A stretch of 46,230 bases of DNA. Origin: an uncultured Mycoplasmatota bacterium. Its GTDB lineage: Bacteria > Bacillota_I > Bacilli_A > RF39 > UBA660. Location of the stretch: contig CAMMMG010000005.1 in NCBI GenBank assembly GCA_946497925.1, positions 1-46,230 on the forward strand, written 5' to 3'. The notes beneath the pieces were generated by a model, which was given only the letters and a program-made list of their open reading frames with translations, did no database searches and had not been told where the DNA came from. Below are positions 7,333 to 42,817 of the stretch, in pieces. Position 1 is the stretch's first letter. Each line of letters begins with the position of its first letter. The position numbers were made by a program, and so were the translations under genes.

Positions 7333-8632
7333 AGGACTAACTAAAGATAATATAATAAAGATATCAACTCATAAAAAAGAAGAAGCTTGGGTAAAAGATT
7401 ATCGAATAAAATCATATGAATACTTTGAAAAGATGAATAAGGACTTACCATTTGGACCTAAGTTTAAACTTAACTTTGATGATATTATCTATTATAAGAG
7501 TGCAACTGATGAACTAACTGATGACTGGAATAAAGTTATGAAACCAATTAAAAGTGAATTAGATAAATTAGGTGTACTTGAAAGCGAACAATATATGGAT
7601 GGTATGGGTGTTCAATATGAAAGTGAAGTAATCTATCATAATATGCTTAAAGAACTTACAGATAAGAAAGTAATCTTTACATCAATTGATAATGCTATTA
7701 AAGAATATCCTCTTCTTATAAAAAAGTATTTTGGTAAGATAGTTAAAAATACTGATAATTTATATGCAACCTTAAATAGTTCTGTTTTCTCAGGTGGAAG
7801 TTTTATCTATATACCTCCTCATACTAAACTAAATAGACCATTACAAAGTTACTTTAGAATCAATAGTAAAGGAATGGGACAATTTGAAAGAACTCTAATC
7901 ATAGTAGATGATGATAGTGAGCTTCATTATATAGAAGGTTGTACCGCTCCTACTTATGCTACTTCTTCACTTCATGCTGCAGTTGTAGAAATATACGTAG
8001 GAAAAAATAGTAAATGTCGTTATACAACAATTCAAAACTGGGCTCCTAATGTCTATAACTTAGTTACTAAAAGAGCTTTAGTAGAAGAAAATGGTACTAT
8101 GGAATGGATCGATGGTAATATTGGAAGTAAACTTACTATGAAGTATCCATGCTGTATACTAAAAGGAGATAATTCTACAGGTACCTGTATTAGTATCGCT
8201 GTCGCAAGTAATAATCAAATCCAGGATACTGGTGCTAGAATGATTCATCTTGGAAAAAATACCCACAGTAAAATAGTTTCTAAAAGTATTTCAAAAAGTG
8301 GAGGAAATGCTACTTATAGAGGAGATGTCAAGATTAAAGAAGAAGCAAGAGATTCTTATTCTATGATAAAATGTGACACTTTAATACTAGATAAAGATAG
8401 TATTAGTGATACTATACCTACAAATATAGTCTCTAATAATAATAGTACTATCGAACATGAAGCGACTGTTTCTAAGATAAATGATGCTAATATATTTTAT
8501 TTAGAAAGTAAAGGTATTCCAAAGGAAAAATGTGAAGAGATAATAGTTTTAGGATTTCTTGAAGAATTTAGAAAAGAACTACCAATGGAGTATGCTGTTG
8601 AATTAAATCAAATTTTGAAAAGAAACTTGTAA
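7322..8632 (+). CDS. sufB: Fe-S cluster assembly protein SufB
   Basis: SufB core: VFSGGSFIYIPPHTKL, IEGCTAP, IQNWAPNVYNLVTKRA, HEATVSKINDANIFYLESKGI. Confidence 0.95.
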   Translation: MEIKGLTKDNIIKISTHKKEEAWVKDYRIKSYEYFEKMNKDLPFGPKFKLNFDDIIYYKSATDELTDDWNKVMKPIKSELDKLGVLESEQYMDGMGVQYESEVIYHNMLKELTDKKVIFTSIDNAIKEYPLLIKKYFGKIVKNTDNLYATLNSSVFSGGSFIYIPPHTKLNRPLQSYFRINSKGMGQFERTLIIVDDDSELHYIEGCTAPTYATSSLHAAVVEIYVGKNSKCRYTTIQNWAPNVYNLVTKRALVEENGTMEWIDGNIGSKLTMKYPCCILKGDNSTGTCISIAVASNNQIQDTGARMIHLGKNTHSKIVSKSISKSGGNATYRGDVKIKEEARDSYSMIKCDTLILDKDSISDTIPTNIVSNNNSTIEHEATVSKINDANIFYLESKGIPKEKCEEIIVLGFLEEFRKELPMEYAVELNQILKRNL

Positions 8633-8690
8633 TTTTAAAAATTCTAAATAAAAAGAAAGTGAATTTTCAAAAAAGTATAGTATAGATTTT

Positions 8691-8736
8691 AAGAAACTGG
8701 CTATAAATAATAATAAATTACCAGTTTCTTTCTTTT
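8691..8736 (+). terminator. Terminator of suf operon
   Basis: Perfect 10-bp stem AAGAAACTGG/CCAGTTTCTT, 20-nt loop, then T-rich tract. Confidence 0.7.
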
Positions 8737-8784
8737 GCAACTAATTTTATTATGTGTTACTTTAGTGGCGAAAGGAGAGATAAA

Positions 8785-9132
8785 ATGTTAAATAGTTTAA
8801 TATTAGTTGGTCGCTTGACTAAAGAAATTGACATTAAAGAAACAGAATCTGGTAAGAAAGTAGGTACACTTTCTCTAGCAATACCAAGAAGTTTTAAAAA
8901 TATGAATGGAGTTTATGAAACTGACTTTGTAAACTGTACTCTTTGGGAAGAAAAAGCTAAAATTACTAAAGAGTATTGTAAGACAGGTGATATTGTGGGA
9001 ATTAGAGGTAGACTTCAAAGTAATATTGTTAAGACAGATGAAGGTACAAAATATTATTTAGAAGTGGTAGCAGATAAAGTGACTTTTTTGTCAAATAAGA
9101 AGAAAGAAGATGTCAAAAATACCGATAATTAG
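8785..9132 (+). CDS. ssb: Single-stranded DNA-binding protein
   Basis: OB-fold pattern MLNSLILVGRLTKEI...FVNCTLWEEKA...VGIRGRLQSNI; GGAGAG SD. Confidence 0.92.
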   Translation: MLNSLILVGRLTKEIDIKETESGKKVGTLSLAIPRSFKNMNGVYETDFVNCTLWEEKAKITKEYCKTGDIVGIRGRLQSNIVKTDEGTKYYLEVVADKVTFLSNKKKEDVKNTDN

Positions 9133-9233
9133 CCATTTTTAGACTTATTTTTCAATAATTTTAAAATAACGGTTGACTTTTGCTAGAAAGAAGATTTATA
9201 TTTTAATAAATAATTAAATAAGGAGAGACAAAT

Positions 9234-9590
9234 ATGCTTTTAAGTAAACGTTTAAAAGAGTTGCGTATATCTAATGGATTAACGCAACGAGAGTTGGGCG
9301 AGCGTGTAAATGTTACAAAAGTAAGTATTTGTTGTTATGAAAATGGCACAAGAACCCCAACTTTGGACACATTAACAAAATTAGGAAAGGTTTTAGATGT
9401 AGATGTAGACTACCTATTGGGGTATGATAGTCCTGTTAAAGAAAAAGGCAAAAGTAAAAAAGTTATTAATATGGCTAAAGAAGAAATAGAGTTTATTACT
9501 GAAATACGTAAACTTGAAAATATTCATCAAGCCATTATTGAAAATCCCAAAAGAATAATAGAATTGATAAGTAAGGAATTAAATTTTTAA
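9234..9590 (+). CDS. XRE family HTH transcriptional regulator
   Basis: N-terminal HTH: LKELRISNGLTQRELGERVNVTKVSICCYENGTRTPTLDTLTKLGKVLDVDVDYLLG. Confidence 0.93.
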   Translation: MLLSKRLKELRISNGLTQRELGERVNVTKVSICCYENGTRTPTLDTLTKLGKVLDVDVDYLLGYDSPVKEKGKSKKVINMAKEEIEFITEIRKLENIHQAIIENPKRIIELISKELNF

Positions 9591-9618
9591 TTTCGTGCTT
9601 ATATTGTAAAAAAATGTT

Positions 9619-9645
9619 AAGAGTCTTGTAATTTAAGACTCTTTT
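9619..9645 (+). terminator. Rho-independent terminator
   Basis: AAGAGTCTT-GTAATTT-AAGACTCTT followed by TT. Confidence 0.7.
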
Positions 9646-9672
9646 AATTATTATTAAAATAGGTGATTAACT

Positions 9673-10896
9673 ATGATACTAGATATAATTAATAAGAAAG
9701 CAAATAACTATGAATTAACTAAAGAAGAACTAGAAACCATTTTCATGGGCTATCTAAAAGATGAAGTAAAAGATTATCAAATGAGTGCATTTCTAATGGC
9801 TATATGTATTAATGATATGAGCGATAGCGAAATATTCGCTCTAACTGATATCTTTATTAGAAGTGGAGAAGTTTTAGATTTAAGTTTTATTGATGCTATT
9901 AAAGTAGATAAACATTCAACTGGTGGTGTAGGAGATAAAACAACCCTAATAGTTGCACCCCTAGTCGCTAGTTGTAATGTTCCCATCATAAAAATGAGTG
10001 GAAGGGGATTAGGATATACAGGGGGAACTATAGATAAATTAGAATCAATACCAGGTTTTAAGGTTGACCTAACAGAAGAGGAAATAAAAAGGCAAGCTAA
10101 AGAAATAGGTATTGTTATAACAAGTCAAACTAAAGACTTAGCACCTCTTGATAAAAAAGTATATGCACTTCGTGATGTTACCGCTACAACTAATTCTATT
10201 CCTCTAATCGCTAGTAGTATTATGAGTAAGAAAATAGCAGGTGGTGCAGATAAGATAGTAATAGATATCAAAGTAGGTAATGGCGCTTTAATTAAAACAG
10301 AACAAGAAGCAGAAAGACTATCAAGTCTACTTATTAAAATAGGATCTTATTATCAAAAAGAAGTAAGAACAGTTATATCTAATATGGATAGACCCCTAGG
10401 ACATAGTATAGGAAACAAATTAGAGGTTTTAGAAGCAATAGAAGTTTTAAAAAATAAAGAGAAAGGACATCTTTTAGAACTTTCTATAGATCTTGCTACT
10501 AAAATGGTTTCTATGGGCAAAGAAATAATTGAAAGTGATGCTAAAAAAGAAGTAATAGAAAATCTAGAAACAGGTAAAGCCTTAAATAAGTTTATAGAGT
10601 TCGTTAAATATCAAGGTGGTGACTTAGAAAGCTTAACTATAGAATCTAAAGTTTATAATATAAAAGCTAACAAAAGTGGAGTTCTAAAAGATATTAATGC
10701 TTTATCAATAGCAAAATTAAGTGAAAGCCTAGGCGCTGGTCGTAAAAATAAAGAAGATAATATAGATTATAATGCTGGTGTAGTAATAAAAAAAGAAATA
10801 GGAGATGAAGTAAAAGAAGGAGACATCCTTGCTAATCTTTATACAAACATTGATAATCCAAAATTCAATTTAGAAAAAATATTTGAAATTTCATAA
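9673..10896 (+). CDS. pdp: Pyrimidine-nucleoside phosphorylase
   Basis: KHSTGGVGDKTTLIVAPLVA signature, SGRGLGYTGGTIDKLE; about 407 aa. Confidence 0.93.
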   Translation: MILDIINKKANNYELTKEELETIFMGYLKDEVKDYQMSAFLMAICINDMSDSEIFALTDIFIRSGEVLDLSFIDAIKVDKHSTGGVGDKTTLIVAPLVASCNVPIIKMSGRGLGYTGGTIDKLESIPGFKVDLTEEEIKRQAKEIGIVITSQTKDLAPLDKKVYALRDVTATTNSIPLIASSIMSKKIAGGADKIVIDIKVGNGALIKTEQEAERLSSLLIKIGSYYQKEVRTVISNMDRPLGHSIGNKLEVLEAIEVLKNKEKGHLLELSIDLATKMVSMGKEIIESDAKKEVIENLETGKALNKFIEFVKYQGGDLESLTIESKVYNIKANKSGVLKDINALSIAKLSESLGAGRKNKEDNIDYNAGVVIKKEIGDEVKEGDILANLYTNIDNPKFNLEKIFEIS

Positions 10897-10911
10897 AAAC
10901 ATGTAACTTAT

Positions 10912-10945
10912 AAAATTGATGCTAGAAACTAACATCAATTTTTTA
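10912..10945 (+). terminator. Rho-independent terminator
   Basis: AAAATTGATG...CATCAATTTT then T-tract. Confidence 0.75.
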
Positions 10946-11065
10946 TTTCTTTTAGATGAATTTAATAAATTAAAGATCTTCTTTATCAAATATTAATAAT
11001 TAGTGATTTGTATTACTTTTCTTCCTATGTTAGAGTGTATTTACTATAAAGAAAGGAGAAACTTT

Positions 11066-11896
11066 ATGAATAAGAAACCAAGATTTATCCCACTACTATC
11101 AGATACAACTGCAAAAGCATTAATTAAAGATGAACACTATAGATGGTTCTATGAGGATATTATTAAATATCTTACAGGAATTGATTTAAGAGGATATAAG
11201 CTAATAGATAATGAACTTAATAGTGGTAATAAAGTTAAAGACTATAGAACTGATTTAATCTTTGAGAAAGGAAAGCATCTTGTAAATCTAGAATTAAATC
11301 AGTTTGTCTATAGATATACATTAGTAAAGAATAGATCGTATGCTCTTCGCCTAGCCGGTTATGGATATTTATCAGGAGAAGATTATAAAGAAAGATATGT
11401 AACCCAAATTAATTTAAATAATAAGATTGTAAATGATGGAAAAAAGGAAAAGAGTATCTTAAATTATAAGTTACAAGATCCAAAATATAAAAGAGTATTA
11501 AAAAATATAAAAATAATGGAAATATATCTTTTAAATTACAAAAATATAGTATATAATGGAACTAACAAATACGATACTTATGTATCAATGCTAACAGCTA
11601 CGTCTTTTAAAGAGTTAGAAGAAATAGTAGGAGATTTAGAAGAAGGGAGAAGAATTATGGAAAAGTTAAAAGAATTAGGATTAGATGATAAGTATGGAGC
11701 ATATTATGATGCCGAGATAGTAAGGAAGAAAGAGATAAATTCTGCAAGAAGTGAAGGTTATACTGATGGTAAAAAGGAAGGTAAAAATGAAACATTAACT
11801 TCAATAGCCAAAACAATGTTAAAAGCTGGAGAAAGTATTAATAAAGTAATGACTTATACGGGATTAAAGAAAAAAGATATAATGTCATTAATGTAA
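11066..11896 (+). CDS. Rpn family recombination-promoting nuclease / PD-(D/E)XK transposase-like protein
   Basis: Rpn/PDDEXK_2 layout: DYRTDLIFEKGKHLVNLELNQ, then YVTQINLNN, C-terminal EGKKEGKNE low-complexity tail; AAAGGAG SD at 11066. Confidence 0.85.
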   Translation: MNKKPRFIPLLSDTTAKALIKDEHYRWFYEDIIKYLTGIDLRGYKLIDNELNSGNKVKDYRTDLIFEKGKHLVNLELNQFVYRYTLVKNRSYALRLAGYGYLSGEDYKERYVTQINLNNKIVNDGKKEKSILNYKLQDPKYKRVLKNIKIMEIYLLNYKNIVYNGTNKYDTYVSMLTATSFKELEEIVGDLEEGRRIMEKLKELGLDDKYGAYYDAEIVRKKEINSARSEGYTDGKKEGKNETLTSIAKTMLKAGESINKVMTYTGLKKKDIMSLM

Positions 11897-38100: not shown

Positions 38101-39390
38101 ATGGATAATAAAGTATTAGAAATATTAGAAAGTAAAGAATGGAAAGACTTTTATAATTACTATTTAGATATTGGTATTATAGAACAGATAGGATTGTTTC
38201 GTTATGAAGATATTCATACTAACTTTTTGGCATCCCTATTAAAGAAAGATAACATTTATGGATATGGTCTTAAATCAATGAAACAATTATTAAAGTTTAT
38301 AAAAGAAAATCAAAGGCAAGATAAAAAAAATAATGAAGATTATTTTGAAGGTATTAATTTATCAGAAGATTATGATATTATTGATTTTTCAGAACCAGAT
38401 ATTAGGAAAAAAATAGGCAAATATATTCCAGATTTATATATTACTTTTGGTATAAAACAAGGAAATATAAAAAAATATTTTATTATTCTTATAGAAGCGA
38501 AACTTGAAAGTCCTGAACATTCTAACCAAACAAAAACATATTATGAAAAATTAGAAGGTAATAAAGAATTAAAAAAATATAGAAAAATATACATATATTT
38601 AACTCTTGATGGAAAAAAAGGTAAAGACTGTAGTTGTAAGAATACATATGAACTTTATTCATATCAAGATTTAATAGATAACTTATATTCAGAACTTTCA
38701 TCTAAAAATACAAGAAAAGTTCCTCTTAAAATAGAAGATTATCTAATAACTTTTAATATTTTATATCGTGATGGTATATATAATATTCCAGTTACAAAAG
38801 AAAGTGCTAAGTTAACTCGTAATTTATTTAAAAAAATAGAAGATAATTTAAAAGATGATTTAAATTATTATATACAAGAAATATATAATAGTACTAGTAA
38901 TAATGAATGGCATAAAGAAATTATAAGAGTATTTTTTTCTAATATTAAATATTTAAATAGTAAAAATGATTCGTTTTTTAAGGACAAAGATACAAGTTTT
39001 ATTAATAATTATGTAAAAAGAGGAAATGAAATAAATAGAATAGATAACAAAAGATACAATAATTCTGAATATATTTATCAAGTATTTAAAAAAATAATTA
39101 AAGATTACAAGGTTACATATAAAGATTTAGAAAATATAAATAAAGGGAAAAATAATTATCAGTATATTTATACAGAAGAAGAATTTAATAATATAAAAAA
39201 TTATAAAGATTGTTATACTATTGATAAATATGGTAACTTGAAAATCGGAGATAAAAAATACTATTATTTATATAGGACTAATAGTGAGGAAATAAAGCTT
39301 TTAATTGAAAATATTAAAAATGATGATAAATTTATTAAGTATAAACAAGAAAACACTTTTGAAATACTTGAACAATTAGAAAACAAATAG
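38101..39390 (+). CDS. PD-(D/E)XK nuclease superfamily protein (PDDEXK_4-like)
   Basis: RYEDIHTNFLASLL then PDLYITF...KKYFIILIEAKLESPEHSNQTKTYYEKL, D-(X)n-E-X-K core. Confidence 0.75.
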   Translation: MDNKVLEILESKEWKDFYNYYLDIGIIEQIGLFRYEDIHTNFLASLLKKDNIYGYGLKSMKQLLKFIKENQRQDKKNNEDYFEGINLSEDYDIIDFSEPDIRKKIGKYIPDLYITFGIKQGNIKKYFIILIEAKLESPEHSNQTKTYYEKLEGNKELKKYRKIYIYLTLDGKKGKDCSCKNTYELYSYQDLIDNLYSELSSKNTRKVPLKIEDYLITFNILYRDGIYNIPVTKESAKLTRNLFKKIEDNLKDDLNYYIQEIYNSTSNNEWHKEIIRVFFSNIKYLNSKNDSFFKDKDTSFINNYVKRGNEINRIDNKRYNNSEYIYQVFKKIIKDYKVTYKDLENINKGKNNYQYIYTEEEFNNIKNYKDCYTIDKYGNLKIGDKKYYYLYRTNSEEIKLLIENIKNDDKFIKYKQENTFEILEQLENK

Positions 39391-39397
39391 TATAGTA

Positions 39398-39907
<510 letters not shown>

Positions 39908-40006
39908 AGCAATTCTCCTTTCCAATATAGTTTATTCTTAATAAGAAAATAAGTTATTATTATAGTCTAGTAAATGATATAATTGTAACAAAGGGAGGAA
40001 ATTATT

Positions 40007-40393: not shown

Positions 40394-40516
40394 AAAGAAA
40401 AATACAATTAAAATATAAAAAACGAAGACTAGCCAAAATACGAAGTAAAAATGAGCCAAAATGTAAAATAGATTCTTAATATATAGTATTTATATGCTAT
40501 AATTCTTTATAAGAAG

Positions 40517-41422
40517 GTGTTATTTATGAAAACATATTATATTGATTTAGGTTCATCAACAATAAAAGTTTATTGTTATGAGAATGAATTAAAACTTATA
40601 GAAGAGCATTCTATATATTTTAAAAATGACTTTGATAGAGAAAAAGGCATTAGTGAGAGTAATTTAAAGGAGTTATGTGATTACTTTGAAGAAATAAAAA
40701 CTAAATATGATTTAAAGTATTATAATACAAATATTTTTGTTACTGGTATATTTAGAAATTTAACACAAGAAAGAAAAAAAGATTTAGTTAAGTTATTTAA
40801 TGAAAGATTTGATTTACATTTTAATATTATTAGTCATGGTATTGAAAATTATTATTTAGCAAAAGCTATGGAGAATGATTATAATAACAAGAAAGTCTTA
40901 ATTATTAATATGGGAGGCAAAACTACTGAGTTAGTAACCTTTGTAGGTGATAAAATAACTGATACTAGGAATCTAACTATTGGAGTTGGTGACTTATTAA
41001 ATAACTTTGATAAAGTTAATGATAAATATAGTGGTAATACTGTTGAAGAGATGGAAAAATTTGTTAGAGAAAAATTGTCTAATATTGAATTAGATAAAGA
41101 TTATGACTGTGCAATATTTACAGGTGGAGAAGAAAGATTTGAATTGCTAACAGGATTTAATTTAGTAGACAATACTTTATTTAATGATAATATTCATAAA
41201 TATATGCTTAGTTTAGAAGATTATATTGATGGTACTAAAAAGGTATTTTATAATATCTCGCTTGCTGAATTATATAAGTTAATGCCTGATAATCCTAAAT
41301 GGATGAATGGGGCAAGAAGTGGTGCTATTATACCTTTAGTATTATTTAAAATGGCAAATGTAAAATGGATTATTCCGTCTGATTTAAATTTAATAAATGG
41401 AGTTATTAATGATTTAAAGTAA
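40517..41422 (+). CDS. Divergent Ppx/GppA-like ASKHA phosphatase
   Basis: IDLGSSTIKVY, FVTGIFRNL, IISHGIENYYLA, IINMGGKTTELVTF mirror Ppx/GppA blocks; possible start at MKTYY 40526. Confidence 0.65.
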   Translation: MLFMKTYYIDLGSSTIKVYCYENELKLIEEHSIYFKNDFDREKGISESNLKELCDYFEEIKTKYDLKYYNTNIFVTGIFRNLTQERKKDLVKLFNERFDLHFNIISHGIENYYLAKAMENDYNNKKVLIINMGGKTTELVTFVGDKITDTRNLTIGVGDLLNNFDKVNDKYSGNTVEEMEKFVREKLSNIELDKDYDCAIFTGGEERFELLTGFNLVDNTLFNDNIHKYMLSLEDYIDGTKKVFYNISLAELYKLMPDNPKWMNGARSGAIIPLVLFKMANVKWIIPSDLNLINGVINDLK

Positions 41423-41443
41423 ATCTTAATTAAGGGGGATGTT

Positions 41444-42817
41444 ATGGTTAAAAATGTTATATCAGTAATAGATGGTGAAGCTGGTAGTTGTGGTAAAGCT
41501 AAAGTAGTAGGTGAAATAGCAACTGATAAATCTATTAATTTAGGTGCTGCTATTACTAATTGTATGCCAAATGCAGGACATACTTTTGTAGATGAAAATG
41601 GTAATGCTACTGTTTTTAGAAATATCCCCGTATCATCAGTTAATCCTAATACAGAGTTATTTATTGGACCAGGTTCTGCTATTGATATGGAAGTGTTTAT
41701 TAATGAATATGAACAAGTTAGAAAATATCTAGGCGATAGAAAAATTTATGTTCACGAAATGGTTCCTTTAATTGAAGAGAGACATAAACAATATGAAAGG
41801 GAACATATTAAAACTGGTTCAACATTTAAAGGTGGTAATGCTGTTACTTGTGAGAAAATTCTTAAAGATAAAAAAATAGAGTTTTTTAAGACCTTTAGAA
41901 ATGCTATTGTTTGTTCAAATGATGAATGGCATGAGAGATTATATAAACATCTTGAAAATCCTTTAGAATATGTAATATTAGAAGGTTCACAAGGTTGTGA
42001 TTTAGATATTAATCATAGTGGTCATTATCCTAATACTGTTTGTAGGGAAGTTTCTACTATGCAATTACTTGCAGATTCTGGAATTTCTGCAGAGAGATTA
42101 TTACAAACGATTATGGTTATAAGGCCATTCCCAATAAGAATAAGTAATATAACAAAATCTGGTGAATATATTTATTCAGGAAATTATGGTAAAGGTGAAG
42201 AATTAACTTGGACTCAAATTAATCTTGCATCAATGTATGGAAGTTATCCTTGTCGTGGCGATATTGAATGTTTTCCTAATTATTTAAATATTAAAAGATT
42301 AAAGAAAATTATTAGTCATTGTCCAGAAGTGTGTTTAAAACAAATCTTTGGAGAAAATTATAAATCAAAGAGTTTAGATACTATAACATTACTTGAAGCT
42401 CTAGAATTAGAACGATTAATGTATAAATCTAAGGGATTATCTGAATATGAAACAAAAATAATTGAACTTCCGATGGTAGATGGTGATTTTCCACCTAATA
42501 CTGTATTTGATCAGTCTGAACAAACGACAGTAACAAAAATGGAGAGAAGAGTATTTGATTTAGATATAAAAAAGTTAAAAACAAATTGCCAAATTAATAC
42601 TCCATCTAGTTTATATTTAAACTTTTTTCAACATTTAGGATTAGATTTTAAGGGTGAAAGTGGTAATTTTGAAGATTATTATTTTAATAGATATTTAAGA
42701 GAATATTTTGACTGGTTAGAAAGAGAAACAGGAGTTGAAATATCTGCTTTAGGAACTGGTGCTAAAAATAAAGAAAGAATTTTAAAAAAGGAATTAGTTA
42801 AAAATATAATAAAATGA
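41444..42817 (+). CDS. PurA/PurZ-like (adenylosuccinate synthetase superfamily) protein
   Basis: IDGEAGSCGKAK P-loop-equivalent, PNAGHTFV, IGPGSAID, EGSQGCDLDINHSGHYPNTVCREVSTMQLLADSGI, IRPFPIRISN...EELTW. Confidence 0.75.
   Translation: MVKNVISVIDGEAGSCGKAKVVGEIATDKSINLGAAITNCMPNAGHTFVDENGNATVFRNIPVSSVNPNTELFIGPGSAIDMEVFINEYEQVRKYLGDRKIYVHEMVPLIEERHKQYEREHIKTGSTFKGGNAVTCEKILKDKKIEFFKTFRNAIVCSNDEWHERLYKHLENPLEYVILEGSQGCDLDINHSGHYPNTVCREVSTMQLLADSGISAERLLQTIMVIRPFPIRISNITKSGEYIYSGNYGKGEELTWTQINLASMYGSYPCRGDIECFPNYLNIKRLKKIISHCPEVCLKQIFGENYKSKSLDTITLLEALELERLMYKSKGLSEYETKIIELPMVDGDFPPNTVFDQSEQTTVTKMERRVFDLDIKKLKTNCQINTPSSLYLNFFQHLGLDFKGESGNFEDYYFNRYLREYFDWLERETGVEISALGTGAKNKERILKKELVKNIIK

Follow-up and report, generated by a model that had tools for sequence, protein, structure and literature searches.

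We propose that two adjacent genes in the 46,230-nucleotide stretch of bacterial DNA analysed here (the window) combine a captured PurZ with a partner protein of the Ppx/GppA fold, and that the two together would produce a dead-end succino-nucleotide, causing conditional nucleotide depletion or toxicity, with phage defence as the leading candidate role. The probability of this proposal as a whole is put at about 0.38. The synthetase would act as a (d)GMP:aspartate ligase, in which ATP or dATP drives the joining of aspartate to C6 of (d)GMP, and its product would be N6-succino-2-amino-(d)AMP. The partner would supply or gate the guanine nucleotide; MazZ has this role for phage PurZ, turning dGTP into dGMP. 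Because nearly all hosts have neither PurB nor another Lyase_1 enzyme, the adduct would stay unprocessed to a 2-aminoadenine (Z) or A nucleotide, and the system would end in the succino-nucleotide, draining (d)GMP and (d)ATP. The initial annotation of this locus had suggested that the pair makes or processes an unusual purine nucleotide, and this is upheld as the best inference. Known PurZ enzymes come from Z-genome phages and a few archaea. A phage-descended PurZ that is chromosomal and under selection in bacteria unable to complete the Z pathway would mean that the enzyme has a second use. The pair lets the idea of a dead-end succino-nucleotide be tested and, if the proposal is true, nucleotide-based immunity or stress arrest would gain a new kind of chemistry.

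Both genes lie on the plus strand. The first (40526-41422; 298 aa) encodes a Ppx/GppA-like ASKHA protein, and the second (41444-42817; 457 aa) a PurZ-like (amino)adenylosuccinate synthetase homologue. The open reading frames read from the window sequence agree with the two-gene operon and 21-nt gap described initially. The upstream frame had been given a start at GTG 40517; the frame is present, but ATG 40526 is the more likely start, because AGAAGGTG at 40512-40519 (plus strand) fits a ribosome-binding site. Within the 21-nt gap, AGGGGG at 41433-41438 (plus strand) probably serves the second gene as ribosome-binding site.

The product of the second gene matches the adenylosuccinate synthetase family PF00709 at 71.7 bits (cut-off 27), and PurZ is its best match in both NCBIfam (NF038379, 7.1e-49) and PHROG (PHROG 1211, 1.6e-46). 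The score against NF038379 is 166.6 bits, under the curated cut-off of 300 bits, and the PurA equivalog gives 77 bits against a cut-off of 395.55. Among solved structures, its closest PDB relatives are phage PurZ enzymes, those of S-2L and phiVC8 first, and an AlphaFold2 model built from the family alignment (pLDDT 88.3) has its best fold matches in P. horikoshii PurA and phage PurZ/DgsS. The fold and most catalytic motifs are shared with housekeeping PurA (bacterial and P. horikoshii), which differs in keeping the catalytic Asp, in its purine-donor pocket and in its separate place in the tree. Residues, scores and tree thus rule out a canonical PurA and support the initial view of a PurZ-like rather than housekeeping enzyme.

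The motifs GEAGSCGKAK, NAGH, IGPG, EGSQG, PFPIR and TTVTK..RR are seen in the product, and they include the PurA-superfamily blocks and the unusual first loop that had drawn attention to it. Ser15, within GSCGK (41483-41497, plus strand), corresponds to the catalytic Asp13 of PurA; this replacement had also been noticed, and the Ser is kept across the relatives. In an alignment of 53 relatives, Ser15, Cys16 and Lys18 are invariant, and conservation is at least 98% at N43-A44-G45-H46, Q183, T361, V363, T364, R368 and R369. The same Ser is found in all phage PurZ and PurZ0 enzymes and rhizobial homologues compared, and vL179, which reads GSGGK, also keeps it. The Cys that follows is present and conserved, as stated at first, but it is not special to this family, since some phage PurZ enzymes also read GSCGK.

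In PurZ structures, the adenine pocket was assigned to N305/F306/Q308, and ribonucleotide exclusion to Val241 and the insertion after it (PMC8342488). The 41444 product has N393-F394-x-Q396 within YLNFFQHLG (residues 391-399; 42614-42640, plus strand), matching the S-2L PurZ residues, and, at the place of Val241, Ile233, which faces the ribose 2' position according to the alignment and PMC8342488 and is followed by a PurZ-type insertion (PFPIRISN...ELTW; 42128-42217, plus strand). The loop after the ribose-facing residue is long in this product and in phage PurZ, and shorter or absent in PurZ0, the rhizobial homologues and PurA. Because of the NFxQ pocket and of Ile233 with its insertion, the enzyme should use ATP or dATP as energy donor and may prefer deoxynucleotides. 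The aspartate-binding loop TTVTKMERR (residues 361-369; 42524-42550, plus strand) holds the invariant T361, V363, T364, R368 and R369. The family usually carries an insertion of its own, about 95 residues long (residues 263-356; 42230-42511, plus strand) and mostly helical in the model, which neither its short form (L069-L072) nor phage PurZ has. The product therefore resembles phage PurZ (S-2L, phiVC8; DgsS; NF038379) in the Ser at the catalytic Asp position, the aspartate loop, the NFxQ pocket, the ribose-side insertion and descent; it differs in being chromosomal in bacteria, in the extra insertion, in its score under the NF038379 cut-off, in having a Ppx/GppA-like partner where phages have MazZ/DatZ, and in hosts that lack PurB. 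The PurZ0 enzymes of Arthrobacter, Microbacterium and Gordonia phages (7vf6) share the Ser, but they belong to another clade, lack the NFxQ pocket and have a short loop. It is fairly probable that the 41444 product takes (d)GMP, or a guanine nucleotide close to it, as substrate.

In a maximum-likelihood tree, the family is nested inside the phage PurZ clade, clearly apart from PurA, as the sister (100/98 support) of GSCGK-type PurZ from large phages (L170, L172 and L173). A tree keeping phage PurZ as a clade without the family was rejected (p-AU 0.0002), and the same separation gave p-AU 0.009 when the bacterial protein L181 was counted with the phages. This place in the tree, together with the Ser, the NFxQ pocket and the loop insertion, makes a phage-derived PurZ-type synthetase highly probable, and most likely Bacilli acquired a phage purZ and have retained it in the chromosome as an accessory gene. 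An active Z-genome prophage was rejected, as there are no phage genes beside the pair, and a search of viral contigs and phage records did not find the exact pair.

No DatZ homologue was found in the three sister phage records, which may be fragments, and these phages possibly carry an unusual DNA purine other than plain Z. ThyX lies beside PurZ in L170 and, as read by eye, in L172 too. L181 comes from another Bacilli chromosome (G374), where, at 8602-11609, a PurZ-like gene directly follows a NUDIX gene. The other genes of this operon, assigned by eye only, are CYTH phosphatase-like and dCMP deaminase-like, with a serine recombinase nearby, and the whole looks like a mobile nucleotide-modification cassette.

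The metabolism of the hosts bears directly on the fate of the product. Canonical purA is absent in all 35 same-genus genomes, the window's included, and in 40 of 45 carriers of the PurZ-like gene, while the remaining five have it. The gene purB is absent in 28 of 28 same-genus genomes searched and exceeds the cut-off in only one of 45 carriers, leaving 44 without a match over that score; no Lyase_1 protein was found in 33 of 34 carriers, with controls positive in 14 of 14. Searches for purA, purB and apt in Onthousia genomes G000, G022, G025 and G027 found none of them, and purA and apt were not found in G030. Incompleteness of metagenome-assembled genomes (MAGs) weakens single absences among these, but not the overall purA/purB/Lyase_1 pattern. 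The initial annotation had reserved a doubt for the case of a canonical PurA with no second purA in the genome; there is indeed no canonical purA, and the doubt does not apply because the 41444 product is not canonical PurA.

These absences could suggest a replacement PurA that converts IMP to AMP in hosts that lost purA, the more so as apt is missing in the five Onthousia genomes. This explanation is improbable given the Ser in place of the catalytic Asp, the simultaneous absence of purB, the fact that most members of the genus live without the gene and the five carriers that also hold a canonical purA. Equally improbable is that an unrecognised enzyme performs the lyase step and that a finished Z nucleotide results for use in DNA or RNA. 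The PurZ hallmarks and phage descent would fit it, and most polymerases accept Z (PMC8342488), but nearly all carriers lack purB and Lyase_1, and PurZ by itself would not replace A. Furthermore, no DatZ, MazZ or DpoZ was recognised among the neighbours of the gene, just as the initial annotation had reported. In Z phages, host enzymes finish the succino-adduct (PMC8342488). With purB and Lyase_1 absent from nearly all carriers, these hosts appear to lack the reaction that normally leads on to Z or A nucleotides, and the product is probably a dead end in its native host; together with the absence of purA, this speaks against completion of a Z or A nucleotide. A lyase of a different type could still carry the adduct further.

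The Ppx/GppA family acts on guanosine polyphosphates and polyphosphate. The partner matches PF02541 at 34.1 bits, over the gathering score of 27, and its AlphaFold2 model from the family alignment (pLDDT 79.7) has the A. aeolicus Ppx/GppA structure 1t6c as best solved fold and top match (E 3.5e-17, TM-score about 0.59). With the phosphatases of this family it shares the ASKHA fold and conserved Glu residues that align with those of A. aeolicus. It differs from them in its short, one-domain form and in the phosphate-2 motif, which reads NMGGKTTE (residues 128-135; 40907-40930, plus strand) in place of DIGGGSTE; the motif aligns with DQGGGSTE of A. aeolicus and retains the final E. All 22 aligned family members have NMGGKTTE unchanged, and the mean column identity of their alignment is 87%. 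The partner is thus a divergent Ppx/GppA-like ASKHA protein, as first described; a close Ppx orthologue is ruled out by scores far below the exopolyphosphatase cut-off. Lacking the Asp and one Gly of the phosphate motif, it may not be a hydrolase, and it is possible that hydrolysis was lost while binding was retained. Close orthologues were found only in carriers of the PurZ-like gene; the single exception (G023) is truncated by the end of its contig.

The alarmone (p)ppGpp is bound by GppA and PPX and degraded by the NUDIX enzyme MutT (PMC5845004); the PurZ of Z phages receives its (d)GMP from MazZ (PMC8342488). By analogy, the partner might feed or gate a guanine nucleotide for the PurZ-like enzyme, a role we infer tentatively, at somewhat less than even odds. 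A different version of the chemistry is that, at least in the window's subclade, the enzyme has moved on to a different guanine compound, for instance a breakdown product of (p)ppGpp, which the partner prepares. The window and L017-L021 share an altered 5'-phosphate site, to which L032 comes close, with R replaced by K in CEKILKD (residues 136-142) and YPYVTSRN by YPNTVCRE (residues 195-202; both within 41849-42049, plus strand). Because these phosphate-binding residues are altered, the substrate in this subclade may have changed and be other than plain (d)GMP. The concerted nature of the change, the Ppx/GppA partner and the RelA/SpoT proteins, whose domains occur in 16 of 16 carriers searched, agree with such a shift. 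However, this site is unaltered in other paired members, so pairing does not depend on the shift, and the explanation is considered unlikely.

Two distant relatives of the partner were also observed. A second short Ppx-like family (about 30% identity) stands alone in Onthousia genomes (L110-L114, L119), and on a mobilizable Nostoc plasmid (L169:7995-9849) a Ppx/GppA-like protein with 24% identity overlaps an MFS transporter gene, with no PurZ-like gene nearby.

A genome scan gave 59 PurZ-like loci, all in MAGs and nearly all labelled as Bacilli or close relatives, including Ca. Onthousia. In about 33 of the roughly 60 loci, the Ppx-like gene is the immediate upstream neighbour and lies about 14-25 nt away, while in L069 about 1.1 kb separates the two genes. 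Roughly half of the PurZ-like loci stand alone, at other genomic places. The pairing expected in relatives is therefore conserved in part, and with about 11 changes of state on the tree it is labile; an obligatory pairing is ruled out by the same count. Across close pairs, dN/dS is 0.06-0.16 for both genes, which are thus under purifying selection, and these values together with the conserved linkage argue that the pair is not due to chance.

Within the genus, six of the 35 genomes searched (the window's own included) have a PurZ-like match, and one of these is a deletion remnant only. Deleted or broken copies are frequent (G025, G415, L074, L073). In L007 (G025), the first part of the Ppx-like gene runs on into the last part of the PurZ-like gene at the 12-bp repeat ATTATTAGTCAT, which in the window occurs in the Ppx-like gene (40826-40837, plus strand) and again in the PurZ-like gene (42308-42319, plus strand), so that recombination between the copies would yield the same fused deletion gene. 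In L150 (G415), a separate deletion produced a similar fusion, Ppx-like on its 5' side and PurZ-like on its 3' side. The few holders in the genus, changing neighbours, nearby mobile and defence genes and recurrent deletions make the PurZ-like gene an accessory one. Broken and fused copies would also be expected if the gene were a selfish or decaying leftover of phage capture that no longer has a function, but the low dN/dS and the conserved catalytic residues already disfavour such a remnant, which we regard as very improbable.

Neither gene matched a catalogued defence protein in PADLOC, and a literature search found no PurA/PurZ-type defence system and no PurZ-Ppx pair. PADLOC matches near paired loci comprise AbiA (twice), DUF1016 (twice) and PDC-S01 (twice), and stand-alone control loci give matches as well. 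Because stand-alone loci are not clearly poorer in such matches, enrichment in defence islands is only suggestive, and a strong claim of this kind was dropped. AbiA lies 57 nt upstream in L030 and is also present at G023; other neighbours of paired loci include an AAA_15 ATPase, a Mob_Pre relaxase and a transposase, and a 5-hmdU-kinase-like gene precedes the deletion-fused copy in G025. Defence or conditional toxicity is a possible role, at clearly less than even odds. It is unlikely that the pair instead makes a succino-purine that acts as a signal or is secreted as a metabolite, and not as a toxin or a means of depletion: dead-end chemistry and a patchy accessory distribution would suit this, but conservation beside the pair does not extend to any exporter, regulator or further biosynthetic gene.

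In the window itself, a PDDEXK_4 nuclease-like gene at 38101-39390 corresponds to the PADLOC candidate PDC-S26. A collagen-like Gly-X-Thr repeat protein is encoded near the pair on the minus strand (39440-39925), and similar genes occur in a few related loci.

A wider set is indicated by Ser-type PurA homologues in mobile islands of Bacilli and Rhizobiales, paired with nucleotide-handling proteins. The Rhizobiales-plasmid homologues resemble the present enzyme in the Ser (within GSEGKG), the accessory islands and the presence of a partner gene. They differ in forming a separate clade and in their associated genes: some are P-loop kinase fusions partnered by DUF7002, and others have a dCTP-deaminase-like membrane protein encoded after them. 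The broadest form of our proposal, which is speculative, is that bacteria have domesticated a Z-genome enzyme which, with a Ppx/GppA-like protein, would turn guanine nucleotides into an unprocessable succino-nucleotide used as a weapon or switch, and that the Rhizobiales counterparts arose independently. In these plasmids (L127, L133, L135-L137, L125), the P-loop kinase is N-terminal in the fusions, and the genes around the Ser-type homologues include SIR2/HerA, AbiE, AbiJ-NTD4 and RelA/SpoT.
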